Shown: in pieces, positions 51,780 through 58,595 of the stretch | How the letters are laid out: each line of letters starts with the position of its first letter | How positions within the stretch are numbered: position 1 is the first letter of the stretch | Assembly: GCF_000626635.1 (NCBI RefSeq) | Contig: NZ_CP007451.1 | Coordinates: forward strand, 1,674,001 to 1,738,000 | Reading direction: 5' to 3' | DNA length: 64,000 bases | Source: Draconibacterium orientale | Lineage (GTDB): Bacteria; Bacteroidota; Bacteroidia; Bacteroidales; Prolixibacteraceae | Notes under the pieces: generated by a model | The model's database searches: none | What the model was told of the DNA's origin: nothing | What the model saw: the letters and a program-made list of their open reading frames with translations, nothing else | Position numbers and translations under genes: made by a program

Positions 51780-52094
51780 AAAACTGCACGCTTTTTGTTA
51801 GCAAATAATTATTCGAAAAATTGAATTTTTACAAGTAATATTCCGTTAACAAAAATCTTCATCAGCTAATATAAATTTTCAGTTTTGGTAAACTTTTCTC
51901 AACTATCAAACACATAACTATCTATACCTCTGCTATATAACAATTTAAAGTTGATAACTTTTAATTAATTAGCTCCCGAAAAAATTCCAAATATTTGTTT
52001 TCTATTCTATCTTGCATTACACAATTTGTTGTGATTGACATCTAAGAAAATCGAATATACATTCTTATAACTTTTAATACACTTACAGAAAAAA
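51780..52094. other. AT-rich leader region of the ribonucleotide reductase gene
   Basis: A 315-bp gap with no coding sequence. It contains two palindromic sites, described separately, but no cobalamin-riboswitch B12 box and no exact TAnnTTTG box. Confidence 0.6.
51985..52034 (+). promoter_or_regulatory. Candidate NrdR boxes upstream of the ribonucleotide reductase gene
   Basis: ACACAATTTGTTGTGA at 52019-52034 matches the NrdR-box consensus acaCwAtATaTwGtgt at about 13 of 16 positions. A second palindrome, CAAATATTTG, is centred 34 bases upstream and shares the CwA...TwG ends. NrdR normally binds such tandem boxes at 30-32 bases, so the spacing is a little long. No nrdR gene is in the window. 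Confidence 0.4.
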
Positions 52095-54647
52095 ATGGCA
52101 GTAAACGAAGTATCTGTAAAGGCCCCGGCGGGCAAAAAAATTTACGCTCAGGAAGAAGCAGTAAATGCCTCGCTCGAGTACTTCAAAGGAGACGATTTGG
52201 CAGCAAGAGTTTGGGTGAACAAGTACGCCCTTAAAGATTCGTACGGAAATATCTTTGAGCGAACACCGGACGACATGCACAAACGCCTTGCAAAAGAAAT
52301 CGCACGCATTGAAGAACGTTACCCAAATCCATTAACCGAAGAGGAAATCTACAGCGTCCTTAAAGATTTCAAGTACATAGTTCCGCAGGGAGGACCAATG
52401 ACCGGTATTGGAAACGACTATCAAATCGCGTCACTATCCAACTGTTTTGTAGTTGGCAACGATGGCGACTCCGATTCGTATGGCGGAATTATGAAAATTG
52501 ACCAGGAACAGGTGCAATTAATGAAACGCCGCGGAGGCGTGGGACACGACCTGTCGCACATCCGCCCAAAAGGCTCTCCGGTAAAAAACTCGGCATTAAC
52601 ATCAACCGGTATTGTGCCGTTTATGGAACGCTACTCCAACTCAACACGCGAAGTTGCGCAAGACGGACGCCGCGGTGCATTGATGCTTTCGGTATCGATT
52701 AAACACCCCGACTCGGAAAGTTTTATCGACGCAAAAATGGAGCAAGGCAAAGTAACCGGAGCCAACGTATCGGTAAAAATACAAGATGATTTTATGCAGG
52801 CTGTTGAATCGGGAACGCCTTACACGCAGCAATACCCGATTAACGGAAAAGCCCTGTACACCAAAAATACCGACGCCGGTAAAATCTGGAAAAAGATTGT
52901 AAAAAATGCATGGAAATCAGCCGAGCCGGGCATTCTGTTCTGGGATACCATTATTAAAGAATCGGTACCCGATTGTTATGCCGACCTGGGTTACCGCACG
53001 GTTTCTACCAACCCTTGCGGAGAAATTCCGTTGTGCCCTTACGATAGCTGCCGCCTGTTAGCCATTAACTTATACTCGTACGTAGAAAACCCGTTTACCA
53101 AAGACGCAAAGTTCAATTTCGAATTGTTTAAAGAGCACATCCACTACGCGCAACGCATTATGGACGACATTATCGATCTTGAGCTGGAAAAAATTGATGC
53201 CATTTTAGAGAAAGTTAAGGAAGATCCGGAAGCTGAAGAAATTAAATTCACCGAAAGAAACCTTTGGGAAAGCATTCGCCGGAAAGCAAAAGAAGGCCGT
53301 CGTACCGGAATTGGTATTACTGCCGAAGGCGACATGCTGGCTGCATTAGGATTACGCTACGGAAGCGACAATGCAACTGATTTCTCGGAAGAAATTCATA
53401 AAACAATTGCCGTTGAAGCATACCGCTCGTCGGTACACCTGGCAAAAGACCGTGGTGCATTTACCATTTACGATGCCGAGCGCGAAAAAAACAATCCGCT
53501 TATCAACCGTATTAAAGATGCCGATAATGGCCTTTACGAAAAAATGGTAAAATACGGCCGTAGAAATATTGCGCTGTTAACCATTGCTCCAACCGGAACA
53601 ACCAGCCTGATGACACAAACAACATCAGGTATCGAACCGGTTTTCCTGCCGGTTTACAAACGCCGCCGCAAAGTAAATCCGAACGACAAAGATGTTCGTG
53701 TTGATTTTATTGACGAAGTTGGCGACTCGTGGGAAGAGTACACCGTTTTCCATCACCATTTTAAAACATGGATGAAAACAAATGGTTACGATACCTCTGT
53801 TGAATATTCGCAGGAAGATCTGGACAAAATGGTAAAAGACTCGCCTTATTTCAAAGCTACATCAAACGATGTTGACTGGCTGAATAAAGTGCGTATGCAA
53901 GGCAGAATACAGAAATGGGTTGACCACTCGATTTCGGTAACCATTAACCTGCCTGCCGATGTTAAAGAAGAGTTGGTTGGCGACTTGTATTTCGAAGCCT
54001 GGAAAAGCGGTTGTAAAGGTGTTACCGTTTATCGCGACGGATCGCGCTCGGGCGTGCTGATTTCGAACGACGACAACAAGAAAAAAACCGAAGACGGTGC
54101 ATTCCCGCTGAAACGCCCTGAAAAACTGGAAGCCGACGTTGTACGTTTCCAAAACAACAAGGAAAAATGGATTGCATTTATCGGTTTAATGGATGGCAAA
54201 CCTTACGAGATTTTCACTGGTTTGCACGACGATGAAGACGGAATTCTGCTGCCTCGCTCGATAACAAAAGGTAATATCATTAAAAGCTGGGAAGGCGAAG
54301 AGTCGCGTTACGATTTCCAATACGCCAACAAACGTGGCTACAAAACCACTATTGAAGGATTGTCGCACAAGTTCAACCCGGTATACTGGAACTACGCCAA
54401 GTTAATTTCGGGAACATTGCGCCACGGTATGCCAATTCATAAAATTGTTGAGCTGGTAACCAGTCTGCAACTGGATAATGATACCATTAACTCGTGGAAA
54501 GCGGGTGTGGCACGCGCACTGAAGAAATACATTCCGGACGGAACGATTGCCGATGATGCCAAGTGTGGCGAATGCGGATCGGACGATGTAGTTTATCAGG
54601 AAGGCTGTTTAACCTGCCTCTCATGCGGATGCTCGAAATGCGGATAA
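52095..54647 (+). CDS. nrdJ: Adenosylcobalamin-dependent (class II) ribonucleotide reductase
   Basis: An 850-residue class II enzyme that reduces ribonucleotides using a B12-derived radical. Motifs include SLSNCFVVG near residue 115 (first redox Cys), RRGGVGHDLSHIRP near 142, the active-site NPCGEIPLCPYDSCRL near 306 (radical Cys with Asn and Glu) and APTGTTSLMTQTTSGIEP near 497. The C-terminus has six Cys (CGECGSDD...CLTCLSCGCSKCG) that form a zinc-ribbon-like tail and probably the thiol shuttle. There is no class I R2 subunit. It works with or without oxygen, as expected for an organism of changing oxygen supply. Confidence 0.96.
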   Translation: MAVNEVSVKAPAGKKIYAQEEAVNASLEYFKGDDLAARVWVNKYALKDSYGNIFERTPDDMHKRLAKEIARIEERYPNPLTEEEIYSVLKDFKYIVPQGGPMTGIGNDYQIASLSNCFVVGNDGDSDSYGGIMKIDQEQVQLMKRRGGVGHDLSHIRPKGSPVKNSALTSTGIVPFMERYSNSTREVAQDGRRGALMLSVSIKHPDSESFIDAKMEQGKVTGANVSVKIQDDFMQAVESGTPYTQQYPINGKALYTKNTDAGKIWKKIVKNAWKSAEPGILFWDTIIKESVPDCYADLGYRTVSTNPCGEIPLCPYDSCRLLAINLYSYVENPFTKDAKFNFELFKEHIHYAQRIMDDIIDLELEKIDAILEKVKEDPEAEEIKFTERNLWESIRRKAKEGRRTGIGITAEGDMLAALGLRYGSDNATDFSEEIHKTIAVEAYRSSVHLAKDRGAFTIYDAEREKNNPLINRIKDADNGLYEKMVKYGRRNIALLTIAPTGTTSLMTQTTSGIEPVFLPVYKRRRKVNPNDKDVRVDFIDEVGDSWEEYTVFHHHFKTWMKTNGYDTSVEYSQEDLDKMVKDSPYFKATSNDVDWLNKVRMQGRIQKWVDHSISVTINLPADVKEELVGDLYFEAWKSGCKGVTVYRDGSRSGVLISNDDNKKKTEDGAFPLKRPEKLEADVVRFQNNKEKWIAFIGLMDGKPYEIFTGLHDDEDGILLPRSITKGNIIKSWEGEESRYDFQYANKRGYKTTIEGLSHKFNPVYWNYAKLISGTLRHGMPIHKIVELVTSLQLDNDTINSWKAGVARALKKYIPDGTIADDAKCGECGSDDVVYQEGCLTCLSCGCSKCG

Positions 54648-54671
54648 TTATTAATTCGACTATACTAAAAG

Positions 54672-54702
54672 AGCCGGGATCAATTTTGATTCCGGCTTTT
54701 TT
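54672..54702 (+). terminator. Terminator of nrdJ
   Basis: AGCCGGGATCAA pairs with TTGATTCCGGCT (12 bp with one G-U) and is followed by T tract, 25 bases after the stop. Confidence 0.9.
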
Positions 54703-54990
54703 AATGAAAGTCTCCATCTTTTTATGTGTATTGCCTTCTGAGTTTCGTCCGGGAAAACCATCTGGCTTCGATCTGCTTTCTTAACCGGACGATTTCGCTT
54801 TGGTCATTTCGCCCCGGCGCTACGTACCAGGCTACCTGCCTGTCATCAGACAGGTTCACATTCAACGCTTTCAGCGCCATAAATAGTTTTTGATGTGTCG
54901 TAAATGCGCTTAGCGGGTTGAAACCGCTTAGCGCTTGTAAATTTGCAGAATCGTAACGCAAAAGCGATCAATTTTGATTCCGGCTTTTTT
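54678..54990. repeat. 25-bp direct repeat flanking a 288-bp palindrome-bearing unit
   Basis: The 25 bases at 54678-54702 (3' part of the nrdJ terminator) recur exactly at 54966-54990, 288 bases later. The second copy lacks the left stem arm. Between them lie the palindromes CCTGTC-ATCA-GACAGG (54839-54854) and GCGCTTAGCGG/CCGCTTAGCGC (54906-54934), features common in REP-like or MITE-like elements. It looks like an insertion or duplication event. Confidence 0.65.
54918..54945 (+). promoter_or_regulatory. Promoter-like site reading into the 42-bp array
   Basis: TAAATTTG (54938-54945) is an exact -7 box on the plus strand, with TTG at 54918-54920, 17 bases upstream. No gene follows it on this strand; transcription would cross the array and meet the hairpin at 55326. 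Confidence 0.35.
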
Positions 54991-55017
54991 GTGCAAAACA
55001 ACAAACCAATAGCGCAC

Positions 55018-55279
55018 AAACATTTGTTAATAGCCCACTTTTTGCTTGCTGATAACGCAAACATTTGTTTATGCCCTTAATTTGTTATCGGGAATGGCAT
55101 AAACAAATGTTCAAGCCCCCAATTTTTATTTTTTGATGTCGCAAACAAATGTTTAACACATGAATTACGAGTAAAACAAGCCTTGAACAAATGTTTAAGG
55201 ACCGAAAAAATGTTTTTTCAAGGCTTAAACATTTGTTTGAGGGAGCAAAAAGTATTTTTTAGTGACTTAAACATTTGTT
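55018..55279. repeat. Seven-copy 11-bp motif array with 42-bp period
   Basis: The motif AAACATTTGTT or its complement occurs at 55018, 55059, 55102, 55144, 55186, 55227 and 55269. Centre-to-centre steps are 41, 43, 42, 42, 41 and 42 bases. Orientation is + + - - - + +. Copies 1, 2, 4, 5, 6 and 7 are exact over at least ten bases; copy 3 has one end change. The motif is a palindrome around a TT/AA centre (AACA..TGTT). The 30-32 base spacers differ but have A/T tracts in the middle. Copies 2 and 3 form a 16-bp perfect stem (AACATTTGTTTATGCC), and copies 5 and 6 a 14-bp one. A weak eighth site (AACAATGG) is near 55311. Confidence 0.9.
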
Positions 55280-55325
55280 AATACCTGAAAATGACAGGAG
55301 GAGCTTATCAAACAATGGCACAAAA

Positions 55326-55356
55326 AAATGCCCCATCGAAAAACGATGAGGCATTT
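55326..55356 (-). terminator. Terminator of gcvH, probably bidirectional
   Basis: AAATGCCCCATCG and CGATGAGGCATTT form a 13-bp stem with one mismatch and a 5-base loop. On the minus strand a T tract follows; on the plus strand ATTTTAT follows. It lies 20 bases after the gcvH stop. Confidence 0.88.
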
Positions 55357-55375
55357 ATTTTATGCTGTAAATCTT

Positions 55376-55756
55376 TTAAGCTTCAATCATTGCTTTGTAA
55401 GCGTCAGCGTCCATCAGGTCGTCCAACTCTGCAGCATCGGCAATATTCACTTTAATCATCCATCCTTTTCCGTAAGGATCTTTGTTTACCAATTCAGGAT
55501 CGTCAGCCAGGTCTTCGTTAAACTCGGCAACTTCACCTCCAACTGGCATAAACAGGTCAGAAACGGTTTTCACTGCCTCAACTGTACCAAAAGTTTCACC
55601 TTTATCAAGTGTTTCACCTTCAGTTTCAATTTCAACAAACACAACATCACCCAGTTCTCCCTGGGCAAAATCGGTAACACCTACAACAGCTACATCTCCC
55701 TCAACGCGTACCCATTCGTGGTCTTGCGTATATTTCAAATCAGCTGGAATATTCAT
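55376..55756 (-). CDS. gcvH: Glycine cleavage system H protein
   Basis: A 126-residue lipoyl carrier protein. It shows the H-protein start [13 protein letters not shown]-like segment (here YTQDHEW near residue 10), the lipoylation site ETVKTVSDL-like (here [12 protein letters not shown], Lys near 63) and the C-terminal [15 protein letters not shown] near 92. It shuttles the aminomethyl group between the P, T and L proteins of glycine cleavage, and in many bacteria also serves lipoate relay. No gcvP, gcvT or lipoyl ligase gene lies beside it. It is monocistronic with a clear terminator. Confidence 0.96.
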
Positions 55757-55988
55757 ATTTTTAGTTTTAAATTATTTAAATCAAATCGATTGAAAACCAC
55801 CTTCTAAATCTATCGTTTTACAAATTCGCCGGGTGCATTTTCATTAAAGATATTTGCCAAAATTAAAACATTTTAATGAAAAACAACCCCCTTACACCCA
55901 TGCATTTCTCTGATTTTTATCGCATTTTATCTCACGGGGTACAAAATATGTGGTGCTTTTTGTATAATTGCAAAAATTGTAGAAAGAA

Positions 55989-56411
55989 ATGTATTCAAAA
56001 AAGATCAATTCGCCCAACGATCTCGAAATTGCTGCAAAGGAGCTAATTACAGCATTTAGCAACGACCGCGTTTTTGCATTTTACGGCAAAATGGGTGCAG
56101 GAAAAACAACTTTTATCCAGTCGGTTTGCCGTGCATTAGGATCAGACGATAATGTTACAAGCCCCACTTTTGCGCTGATAAACGAATACAATACTGCCGA
56201 TCTTGATTCAATTTTTCATTTCGATTTTTACCGGATAAAAGACATCGAGGAAGCTTACGACCTGGGCTACGAAGACTACATTTACAGCGGAAGTTACTGT
56301 TTGATTGAGTGGCCGGAAATGATCGAATCGCTGCTGCCCGAAAAAATGGTGGAGGTAAAAATCGAAGTCCTGGAAGATAATACCCGCCTGATTACCGCAC
56401 AGGAAATATAG
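55989..56411 (+). CDS. tsaE: tRNA threonylcarbamoyladenosine biosynthesis ATPase TsaE
   Basis: A 140-residue P-loop ATPase needed with TsaB, TsaC and TsaD to make t6A37 in tRNAs. The Walker A motif GKMGAGKTTFIQ is near residue 33, SPTFALINEY near 57, FHFDFYRIKD near 75 and the C-terminal LIEWPEM near 106, all typical. Length is normal. TsaD and TsaB genes are not in the window. It is followed after 107 bases by alanine dehydrogenase. Confidence 0.95.
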   Translation: MYSKKINSPNDLEIAAKELITAFSNDRVFAFYGKMGAGKTTFIQSVCRALGSDDNVTSPTFALINEYNTADLDSIFHFDFYRIKDIEEAYDLGYEDYIYSGSYCLIEWPEMIESLLPEKMVEVKIEVLEDNTRLITAQEI

Positions 56412-56518
56412 CCAGCCAATATCGCTTTCTACTTCCCGCTTAATTTTCTTTGAAAACTCCCCTTTTGCTTGTAAATTGCTGCTGTTGATTTCGTCAGGTA
56501 AATTCATTAAGTTCAACT

Positions 56519-57730
56519 ATGGAAAAAGCAAAAGAAAAGGTATCGATACCAAAAACCATGCTTCTGCCCAAAGAGGAGATGTTGGAGGTAAAAAAGAAGG
56601 GCCAGAAAATAAAAATTGGCGTTCCTTCTGATCTGTCGAAAGTTGAATACCGGGTACCTTTATCGCCGCAAGCCGTTGATTTACTGGTTTCGTACGGGCA
56701 CGAAATACTGATCGAACGCAATGCCGGCAAAGCGGCCAGTTACAGCAACGAAGATTACCAAAAAGCCGGCGCTACCATTGTTGAAACCAAAGAAGAAACT
56801 TTTCAGTGCGATATCATTTTACGCATTGCGCCATTTGATTGCGACGAAATAGATGCTTTGCGTGGCAACCAATTTATTATTTCAAACATGCAGATTCAGG
56901 CTCATTGCACTGAATCGATTCAGAAAATGATGCAAAAAAAGGTAACCACCATTGCCTTTGAATACCTCGAAAACGAAGATGGTTTTCTTCCTTTTGTGCA
57001 TCAAATGAGCCAGATTGCAGGCGTTACTTCCATTACCATTGCCAGCGAATACCTGAGTAATTCGCGCAACGGAAAAGGTGTTCTGTTTGGCGAAGTTACC
57101 GGTGTTACACCTGCCGAACTGGTAATAATTGGCACCAGTACAGCGGCTGAATATGCAGCACGCGCAGCACTCGGACTGGGGATTTTCGTGAAGGTTTTTG
57201 ATACTTCGGTTTACGAACTCAGCAAACTGGAAGAGAAATTGGGCCGGCGCATTTTTACGTCGGTATTCTACCCCAAGGTTTTGCGCAAAGCACTTATTTC
57301 GGCCGATGCGGTTATTGGAGCCACCTCCTTTAACACGCCGCCCAAATTTAAAGTGTCGGAAGATTTGGTAAAACAGATGAAAGAGGGTTCGGTAATTATC
57401 GATCTGAACGTGAGCCAGGGAGGCTGTTTCGAAACCTCAAAATGTACCGATTTCAACAACCCAACTTACACCAAACATGGCGTTGTACACTACTGTGTTC
57501 CGAATACTCCGGCTATGGTAGCCCGAACTGCTTCCATTTCGTTGAGTAATATTTTAATTCCAATTTTGCTTGCCATTGGCAACAACGGCGGAGTTGAAAA
57601 CTACATAAAAGTGTCGAAGGGATTCCGGAAAGGCGTGTACATCTACCACGGCATTCTCACCAACCACGATGTTGGCCGCATGTTCAACATCCCGTCGAAA
57701 GATATCGATCTCCTATTGGCAGTTTTTTAA
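56519..57730 (+). CDS. ald: Alanine dehydrogenase
   Basis: A 403-residue enzyme of the alanine dehydrogenase/pyridine nucleotide transhydrogenase family. It interconverts alanine with pyruvate plus ammonia using NAD. The N-terminal domain has the substrate-binding EYRVPLSP (Arg near 43) and the central FEYLENEDGFLPFVHQMSQIAG near 142. The NAD fold carries VIIGTSTAAEYAARAALGLG near 201 (GxSxA in place of the usual GxGxxG) and VGAT-like VIGATSFN near 262. A 30-residue N-terminal extension precedes the family start, as in other Bacteroidota members. A LytTR regulator gene begins 16 bases after it. Confidence 0.88.
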   Translation: MEKAKEKVSIPKTMLLPKEEMLEVKKKGQKIKIGVPSDLSKVEYRVPLSPQAVDLLVSYGHEILIERNAGKAASYSNEDYQKAGATIVETKEETFQCDIILRIAPFDCDEIDALRGNQFIISNMQIQAHCTESIQKMMQKKVTTIAFEYLENEDGFLPFVHQMSQIAGVTSITIASEYLSNSRNGKGVLFGEVTGVTPAELVIIGTSTAAEYAARAALGLGIFVKVFDTSVYELSKLEEKLGRRIFTSVFYPKVLRKALISADAVIGATSFNTPPKFKVSEDLVKQMKEGSVIIDLNVSQGGCFETSKCTDFNNPTYTKHGVVHYCVPNTPAMVARTASISLSNILIPILLAIGNNGGVENYIKVSKGFRKGVYIYHGILTNHDVGRMFNIPSKDIDLLLAVF

Positions 57731-57746
57731 ACAAGAAAAATATATT

Positions 57747-58595
57747 ATGCTATACTCGCTAAACAAAAAATATCCGTTTAACGACAATTTAAAGGTAAAT
57801 ACGCGCTCCATATCATCCGTGAGCCTGGGCATTTTTTTGTTTCTTTTGTTCTTTCAGCCCTTCGAAATTCAAAATCCCGATTTCAACAACCGCCTCATCA
57901 TTCTTGCAACATTTGGCGCAATAACCCTGGTGCTGCTCACTATTTTCAGGGTGGTTATCCCTTCCATTTTCATCACCGCATTTTCCGAAAGCCGCTGGAC
58001 CATACTAAAAGAAATCATCATCGATTTTCTTTTTGTAATTTGCAACTCGGTAGCCTTTGCATTTTTTGCACGTTATGTTGGGCGCCTCCCCATTACTTTC
58101 CCCATTGCAATCAATATCGTCATCATTTCAATAACGGCGTCAGTAGTTGTGGTAATTACCAACCAGTTTTACTTGTTGAAAAAGAAAGTACAAAAGCTGG
58201 AGCCTGCCGCGGAAGAAGTGATTAATAATGAGTTGATGGAAACTCCGAAAGAAATTGAGTTTGAATCGGAGAATAAAACAGAATATTTCACGCTTTTTCT
58301 CGAACAGCTTATTCTTATAAAGTCGGCCAACAATTACATTGAAGTGATTTACAAACACAACGATGAGATTAAGAAAAAACTGATCCGGAATACAATGAAA
58401 ACCACCGAGAACCTGTTACAAAAATACCCCGAGATCATTCGTTGTCATCGCTCGTGCATGGTAAATAAAAACTACATCAAAAAAGTGTCGCGGGGCTCCG
58501 ATGGTTTGGTGCTGAATCTTTTCGATTACCCGCAGGAAATTCACGTTTCCAGGCAATATGTGCTTCGTTTAAAAGAAGCATTAAAAGCATCCTGA
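57747..58595 (+). CDS. Membrane-bound LytTR-family DNA-binding regulator
   Basis: A 282-residue protein. The start is the ATG at 57747, which gives MLYSLNKKYPFNDNLK; a longer frame from 57669 would overlap the alanine dehydrogenase gene by 60 bases with an unnatural leader. Four membrane helices fill about residues 25-145. The C-terminal 95 residues are a LytTR DNA-binding domain (ILIKSANNYIEVIY, LIRNTMKTTENLLQKYPEIIRCHRSCMVN-type region, QEIHVSRQYVLRLKEAL). It is therefore a regulator held at the membrane without a receiver domain. It may control ald or the gene at 58810; no evidence fixes the target. Confidence 0.88.
   Translation: MLYSLNKKYPFNDNLKVNTRSISSVSLGIFLFLLFFQPFEIQNPDFNNRLIILATFGAITLVLLTIFRVVIPSIFITAFSESRWTILKEIIIDFLFVICNSVAFAFFARYVGRLPITFPIAINIVIISITASVVVVITNQFYLLKKKVQKLEPAAEEVINNELMETPKEIEFESENKTEYFTLFLEQLILIKSANNYIEVIYKHNDEIKKKLIRNTMKTTENLLQKYPEIIRCHRSCMVNKNYIKKVSRGSDGLVLNLFDYPQEIHVSRQYVLRLKEALKAS

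Follow-up and report, generated by a model that had tools for sequence, protein, structure and literature searches.

Phased palindromic arrays accompany DUF6261 genes in Bacteroidota, with an orphan copy between convergent genes of Draconibacterium orientale

Here we describe an array of seven palindromic AACAWWTGTT sites phased at about 42 bp in a 64,000-nucleotide stretch of the Draconibacterium orientale genome (the window), which looks like an orphan, that is, a detached copy of an array linked to a gene of the DUF6261 family (PF19775) about 1 Mb away. Arrays of this layout stand upstream of most DUF6261 genes, and in this genome orphan arrays repeat both the motif and the spacing of gene-linked ones, having been copied as whole units. 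From these patterns we infer the identity of the binder, its oligomerisation and every chromosomal consequence discussed below: with a probability of about 0.6, DUF6261 would be the DNA-binding partner, with the window array among its targets. DUF6261 gains a concrete partner, and the DNA predicted as the target of most members stands in their own upstream region.

The array occupies window positions 55019 to 55279 (C1:1729019-1729279 in genome coordinates), has no strand of its own and consists of seven sites and six spacers of 31-32 bp. The exact 10-mers start at 55019, 55060, 55102, 55144, 55186, 55228 and 55270, giving start-to-start distances of 41, 42, 42, 42, 42 and 42 bp. An earlier note on this DNA had reported seven palindromic sites between nrdJ and gcvH, and all seven were located as exact matches. 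Its phasing of about 42 bp stands as well, and the distances that it gave (41, 43, 42, 42, 41 and 42) describe the same array measured with an 11-mer on two strands. The site order + + - - - + + is borne out by the site centres (TTT, TTT, AAA, AAA, AAA, TTT, TTT), and the central A/T tracts that had been seen in the spacers are present as A-tract/T-tract centres. The cores are each embedded centrally in a longer palindrome, such as CCTTGAACAAATGTTTAAGG (55181-55200) and AAGGCTTAAACATTTGTTTGAGG (55220-55242), which were detected as inverted repeats; in this unstranded example (55181-55242) an A-tract/T-tract lies in the spacer between the two. The whole window holds eight exact motifs against 0.90 expected, a number reached by none of 100 shuffles, so that a chance origin of the array was rejected. 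Genome-wide, single exact motifs are mildly over-represented (84 versus 55 in a reversed control), and phased pairs number 7 versus 0 in the control. When up to three mismatches were allowed, pairs exactly 42 bp apart were found at 29 places in the genome versus 16 in the control; all 15 places with at most two mismatches are confined to the three arrays described below, and the other 14 have three mismatches. A search of the window region for known RNA families gave three sub-threshold matches, none of which overlaps the array.

AACAWWTGTT arrays occur three times on one contig of the D. orientale genome, at 0.71 Mb (C1:713434-713694), 1.73 Mb (the window array) and 2.13 Mb (C1:2131442-2131702). 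In all three the sites lie at 0, 42, 84, 126, 168, 210 and 251, a phasing of five times 42 plus 41 bp with no indels. Between arrays the 18-bp sites are 81-83% identical against 59-67% for the spacers, and spacers of the same rank match at a mean of 14.2-16.2 of 24 positions against 10.5-11.0 for spacers of other ranks. This likeness by rank points to copying of the array as a whole, and local slippage at the window site was rejected for the same reason; the possibility raised in the earlier note, that the phasing is chance or simple tandem duplication, is thereby refuted. Judged by this pattern, the array is one that was moved or duplicated as a whole, its sites and phasing kept and its spacers drifted. 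A CRISPR array does not fit either: its acquired spacers would be unrelated, whereas here equal-rank spacers resemble one another across the three arrays. The suggestion of an origin-like iteron array was also rejected, because no initiator was recognised by eye among the ORFs at 52000-58500 and three arrays of this motif stand on one contig. The 713-kb array lies directly upstream of a DUF6261 gene (C1:713825-714544, by Pfam scan), and the window array shares the seven sites and the phasing of this gene-linked array (L033), which places it among the DUF6261-linked phased arrays.

The surroundings of the window array vary between relatives. To its left lies nrdJ (an 850-aa ORF, 52095..54647, plus strand), followed by a terminator-like hairpin (54672..54702, plus strand; GCCGG..CCGGC with a T run) that was recognised by eye and is absent from the terminator scan. 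To its right lies gcvH (a 126-aa ORF, 55376..55756, minus strand), and a terminator-like hairpin found by the scan (55326..55356, minus strand) separates this gene from the array. Both ORFs carry the names given in the earlier note, and they do converge on the array as it had stated. A gcvH match was found in 37 of 37 genomes of the genus, and nrdJ and gcvH are adjacent in 28 of the 30 genus loci examined, D. orientale included. An array whose position relative to nrdJ and gcvH is kept, as the note had envisaged, was not found: across the 28 loci the array is present in D. orientale only, with a remnant in one relative. Thus, the lack of conserved spacing in related genomes that the note had named as grounds for refutation applies at this locus and does not apply to the arrays generally. 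Nine of the 28 gaps between nrdJ and gcvH measure only 118-144 bp, and one that was read (L268, genome G070) has two terminator-like hairpins. Twelve measure 817-880 bp, and the two that were read (L263, L269) hold a LytTR-like ORF by eye. The remnant, in genome G064 (L267), is a decayed stretch of about one unit. In genome G039 (L264) the gap holds a different 42-bp array, with the unit CGATGAAAGC...CTTTCATCAAC and flanks that appear similar by eye; its motif was seen by eye in none of the five G039 DUF6261 genes examined, out of six. A 25-bp half terminator, GATCAATTTTGATTCCGGCTTTTTT, which is the 3' half of the nrdJ hairpin, is repeated exactly in the window (54678-54702 and 54966-54990, 288 bp apart). 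The two copies flank a segment with a 79-aa ORF (54722-54961, minus strand) that has no Pfam match, and this segment is absent from the short gap of G070 (L268).

The D. orientale genome has ten DUF6261 genes, and 41-42 bp arrays stand upstream of all ten, with repeats that differ. DUF6261 loci gathered in different ways were pooled, 176 in all with 144 distinct genes; of the 140 genes that have at least 700 bp upstream, 129 showed an upstream tandem array with a unit of 30-60 bp, in 128 cases at 40-43 bp (periods of 40, 41, 42, 43 and 54 bp in 4, 53, 68, 3 and 1 arrays, respectively). The period is 41 or 42 bp in 121 of the 129 arrays despite very different sequences, which fits the proposal in the earlier note of an oligomeric protein on one face of the helix; what its reader had no means of seeing is the matching array linked to a DUF6261 gene at a distance of about 1 Mb. 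These arrays hold 2-19 units, with a median of 5.1 copies, and stand a median of 172 bp before the start codon. The 11 genes of 140 that have no array are L170, L172, L234, L245, L250, L256, L259, L323, L365, L374 and L375, among which L172 and L250 have doubtful start codons, with predicted proteins of 51 and 97 aa. Among 175 control ORFs (150 aa or longer, other than DUF6261), nine had an upstream array of 40-43 bp (14 at 30-60 bp); locus L343 of genome G064 entered only this control and an ORF scan. Three of the nine are from genome G106, three are in loci with a DUF6261 gene as well (L199, L337, L338), two are the window array and the G039 array, and the last (L286) found no explanation in the part of the locus that was read. 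Within the window, two of 39 ORFs had an upstream array, one being the window array itself.

The arrays upstream of L156 and L157 end 43 and 25 bp before the start codon and, given these distances, may be transcribed. A shared leader (AAACATA..TATGTTT) seemed by eye to be common to four D. orientale loci; as a strict pattern it was found in three of 113 upstream regions (duplicates included, two of the three being orthologues) and in none of 175 controls. In our first palindrome-chain test z>3 was reached by 42 of the 84 upstream regions, with chains that mixed real sites and noise. In the D. orientale genome, Acido-Lenti-1 RNA (RF01687) was matched above the gathering score at L165:2518-2563, L160:2350-2395 and L032:8550-8595; two of these three matches lie about 280-500 bp downstream of DUF6261 genes, and none was found in 20 other DUF6261 loci.

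Repeat unit and protein change together. Pairwise comparison of unit and protein identity among 76 DUF6261 genes, with the 99% null as cut-off, showed a shared unit in 33 of 34 pairs above 80% protein identity, in 39% of 31 pairs at 70-80%, in 35% of 20 at 60-70% and in 26% of 50 at 50-60%, falling to 2-3% of pairs below 40%. Linkage of each gene to its array could by itself produce this correlation, which therefore does not prove binding; unlinked arrays offer the better test. The D. orientale genome was searched for orphans with three of the ten paralogue motifs. AACAWWTGTT has one linked array and two orphans (in the window and at 2.13 Mb), all at 42 bp. For TTTCCGCNNNNGCGGAAA, six units at exactly 42 bp form the linked array, and there are at least three orphans, all with 42-bp spacing: one of 5 units at 0.42 Mb and two of 4 units, at 1.40 and 4.73 Mb. 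TCCGAAAAACCGGAG has a linked array of six units at 41 bp and one orphan of seven sites at 2.94 Mb, again at 41 bp. TTTCCGC is the motif of the paralogue at C1:1540288 and TCCGAAAAACCGGAG that of the paralogue at C1:4178051. For each motif, a gene-linked array is thus accompanied by at least one to three unlinked arrays with the same palindrome and spacing, and on this pattern the orphans are copies of both the palindrome and the family-specific spacing of the linked array.

Five of six orphans among the matches listed (4-7 units each) lie between convergent genes and one between two plus-strand genes, with orientation taken from ORF-based calls that disregard ORFs spanning the arrays; for comparison, five of the 37 neighbouring ORF pairs in the window are convergent. 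The preference for convergent gaps is a finding for D. orientale only, since three AACAAATGTT arrays in genome G106 lie between co-directional ORFs. G106 has these three arrays, yet the only DUF6261 gene detected in its assembly, which is 85% complete, has another motif. A column-by-column scan for residues associated with motif choice gave weak signals, the best r being 0.30 at residue 7, a rough figure from non-independent pairs. Among pairs with different motifs, identity in the first 25 residues against the rest is 0.60 versus 0.74 for L156/L157 and 0.96 versus 0.77 for L159/L191, and in L161/L164 the N-terminus differs most. The N-terminus, or residue 7, is a lead only as a putative specificity determinant.

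The units are palindromic well beyond expectation. Perfect arms of at least 7 nt were found in 36 of 129 unit consensus sequences against 4 of 129 after shuffling, and arms of at least 6 nt in 69 against 14; tested one by one, p<=0.05 for palindromy is attained by 33 of the 129 units, and by 21 of 129 in a gapless test. Such symmetry could belong to DNA or to RNA, and RNA stems should favour G-T over A-C mismatches. G-T mismatches numbered 23 (23.8 expected) and A-C mismatches 38 (25.1 expected) in the 22 arrays that contain three or more strong palindromes; the first version of this count, in 24 arrays, gave 33 (24.0 expected) and 36 (28.4 expected). As G-T shows no excess over A-C, RNA stems fit poorly and were rejected, and we conclude from the mismatch pattern that double-stranded DNA would be the functional form of the arrays, each site most likely taking a dimer and all facing the same side of the helix. 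The same counts bear on the idea that the arrays encode an RNA antitoxin processed unit by unit, with DUF6261 as the toxin, an arrangement for which type III toxin-antitoxin systems (ToxIN, CptIN, TenpIN) provide a close parallel: according to the part of the source consulted, their tandem repeats stand upstream of the gene and track the protein, related toxins having related repeats (PMC5086642). Our arrays share with these the small gene preceded by tandem repeats, whose units are of similar length. However, besides the lack of a G-T excess, the arms of 29 of the 69 strong palindromes are only 0-2 nt apart, which in their present form leaves no room for a hairpin loop, orphan arrays occur without a DUF6261 gene in the stretches read, and no antitoxin Rfam family was matched, whether at E<=0.1 (14 loci) or at the gathering score (20 loci). 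A Pfam scan of six DUF6261 members gave no ToxN match. The comparison sets palindromic DNA sites, orphan arrays and an all-helical protein modelled at low confidence against pseudoknot RNA, and we consider a type III-like system very improbable.

DUF6261 proteins are about 240 aa long, predicted to be all-helical and mostly acidic; nine of the ten D. orientale paralogues have a pI of 4.8-5.2 and one a pI of 9.9. No DNA-binding domain was recognised in them. The Pfam scan of the six members returned only PF19775 and one sub-threshold CDPS match, with no transposase or nuclease family, and a profile search against PDB gave no clear relative (best E 0.039). Two AF2 models, built from alignments of 5 and 4 sequences, were poor (pLDDT 52 and 60), and a Foldseek search with one of them yielded 566 matches with E<=10, only to helical bundles and other helical proteins, of which not one reached E<=0.001. 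Searches of 47 members against NCBIfam, PADLOC and PHROGs gave only weak matches to single members.

We propose that each DUF6261 paralogue would recognise its own palindrome and that the product of C1:713825-714544 would bind the seven window sites, about 1 Mb from its own gene. The two-fold symmetry of the site suggests that DUF6261 probably binds as a dimer, and several dimers placed four helical turns apart on one face of DNA bent by A/T tracts could then oligomerise. At a linked array the protein may regulate the promoter of its own gene; orphan arrays, mostly between convergent genes, would form distant nucleoprotein nodes able to pair with the linked array, in an architectural role, by titration or both. 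The sequence patterns suggest many parallel pairs of protein and DNA site in Bacteroidota. A broader version, which we put forward only tentatively and hold to be clearly the less probable, is that DUF6261 represents a Bacteroidota-wide class of sequence-specific array binders, with one to dozens of pairs per genome (44 seen), private palindromes and a 41-42 bp phase, whose linked and orphan arrays would be joined to organise the chromosome and whose pairs would each be horizontally mobile and evolve separately. If binding is true, Bacteroidota of the gut, mouth and sea would carry many private chromosome-binding systems, which could be of use for studying shifts of DNA specificity between close paralogues and as separate DNA-binding parts.

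Two further readings leave DUF6261 without this role or give it another. The arrays might be read by a general host protein, such as a nucleoid protein or gyrase, that senses phased A-tract bending, with DUF6261 a passenger benefiting from regions of this kind. A/T tracts do recur by eye in AACA-clade units while the palindrome changes, and supercoil stress is to be expected between convergent genes. A single general protein would not, however, explain why each paralogue has a private palindrome that is matched at unlinked orphans for the three motifs tested, and we regard it as improbable. Somewhat less improbable, and still unlikely, is a selfish or mobile cassette, in which DUF6261 mobilises the array as a miniature non-autonomous element, or array and gene move as one unit in the manner of REPs and RAYT, with convergent gaps as harmless landing places. 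The patchy occurrence of DUF6261 (1-14 copies in 75 of 140 family genomes, 44 in one metagenome-assembled genome), the copying of arrays as wholes and the state of the nrdJ-gcvH gap in relatives (short in nine of 28, a remnant in G064, and in G039 another array in its stead between seemingly similar flanks) all agree with it. Against it stand the lack of any transposase or nuclease family in the six members scanned and the constraint on sites and phasing despite spacers of 59-67% identity, a constraint for which a dead cargo copy would have no use. Binding by DUF6261 is also compatible with arrays that arose as mobile or selfish elements.

Known systems offer partial likenesses to the proposed pairing of DUF6261 with its arrays. 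In plasmid centromeres such as ParR-parC and TubR-tubC, a row of sites in front of the gene for the binding protein doubles as operator and partner complex, and our arrays likewise stand upstream of the gene for the putative binder. They differ from these centromeres in that no motor gene was noticed beside the arrays whose neighbours were read, and in that many different pairs and orphan arrays occur here on one chromosome. REP/BIME elements with RAYT (REPtrons) also combine a gene with adjoining palindromic repeats and dispersed copies, of several types per genome and often between convergent ORFs, as described in the available part of the source (PMC3733652). The gene there is an HUH tyrosine transposase and here DUF6261, in which the Pfam scan of six members found no Y1 transposase, so REP/RAYT fits poorly. 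Nor do the arrays consist of a short palindrome of 20-40 bp standing singly or in pairs: gene-linked ones have 2-19 units (median 5) at 40-43 bp, orphans have 4-7 among the matches listed, and the array is copied as a whole. A 42-bp array layout is not described for PINSR, the 188-bp Prevotella intergenic repeat, in the part of PMC4755523 available to us, nor is this layout in the corresponding part of a paper on Porphyromonas gingivalis repeats (PMC5771137). No description of a DUF6261-array pairing was found in the open-access literature searched; the nearest published kind is REP/RAYT (PMC3733652), whose defining transposase is absent.

DUF6261 was found in five of 247 phylum-sample genomes (D. 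orientale included) and in none of 14 control genomes. By comparison, all 12 genomes picked for AACANNTGTT arrays encode DUF6261, four of them already known to do so; only Bacteroidota were chosen for this set, and their genera may differ in how often DUF6261 occurs. In these genomes 27 of 30 DUF6261 genes inspected have upstream arrays of 38-45 bp, including records from Prevotella, Segatella, Tannerella, Parabacteroides, Capnocytophaga and Labilibaculum. Linked arrays of Prevotella illustrans and Segatella baroniae (L349, L359; L348, L360) hold 2, 2, 2 and 3 exact AACANNTGTT sites, and exact sites also occur in unlinked arrays of both species. The gene of the AACA type (at least 90% identity) is present in two of 37 genus genomes, and the same two have phased AACAWWTGTT pairs; the sole phased pair of one of them (G042) is its linked array, so that this co-occurrence adds little. 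Copy number can be extreme: 44 DUF6261 matches were found in a 3.1-Mb metagenome-assembled genome (G388, the genome of L063) and 33 in one of 2.1 Mb (G396, the genome of L053). In viral contigs a single-protein search gave 17 pattern matches, none confirmed, three stretches with the array pattern held no DUF6261 match, and plasmids gave no match.

A contig-wide scan for phased arrays returned at least 106 stretches, with many coding repeats and unrelated taxa among them. Of 113 array loci among the matches listed, seven from our numbered G genomes, 38 lie in ORFs, 32 in tandem, 21 in edge, 13 in divergent and 9 in convergent settings. Several arrays with a AACANNTGTT-type core have a half period of 21 bp, or two helical turns (L050, L066, L067, L113, L122, L123, L126, L127), and a DUF6261 profile search gave no match within these stretches. 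In one viral contig (L345:380-640) GAACATNTGTTC-like palindromes are clustered, in places at a distance of about 14 bp, so that the stretch resembles a multi-operator region. In Sulfurovum and other Campylobacterota, four TGAACANNTGTTCA-type sites at 42-43 bp stand next to a gene start, and similar sites occur in L056, L062, L076, L079, L106, L117 and L118. These arrays have the same spacing and a similar core but belong to another phylum and another protein, as a separate multi-operator array. In L054, L078, L093 and L108 the array ends 9-27 bp before an ORF, and the gene downstream in L108 (1301-1954) resembles a TetR-family regulator by eye.
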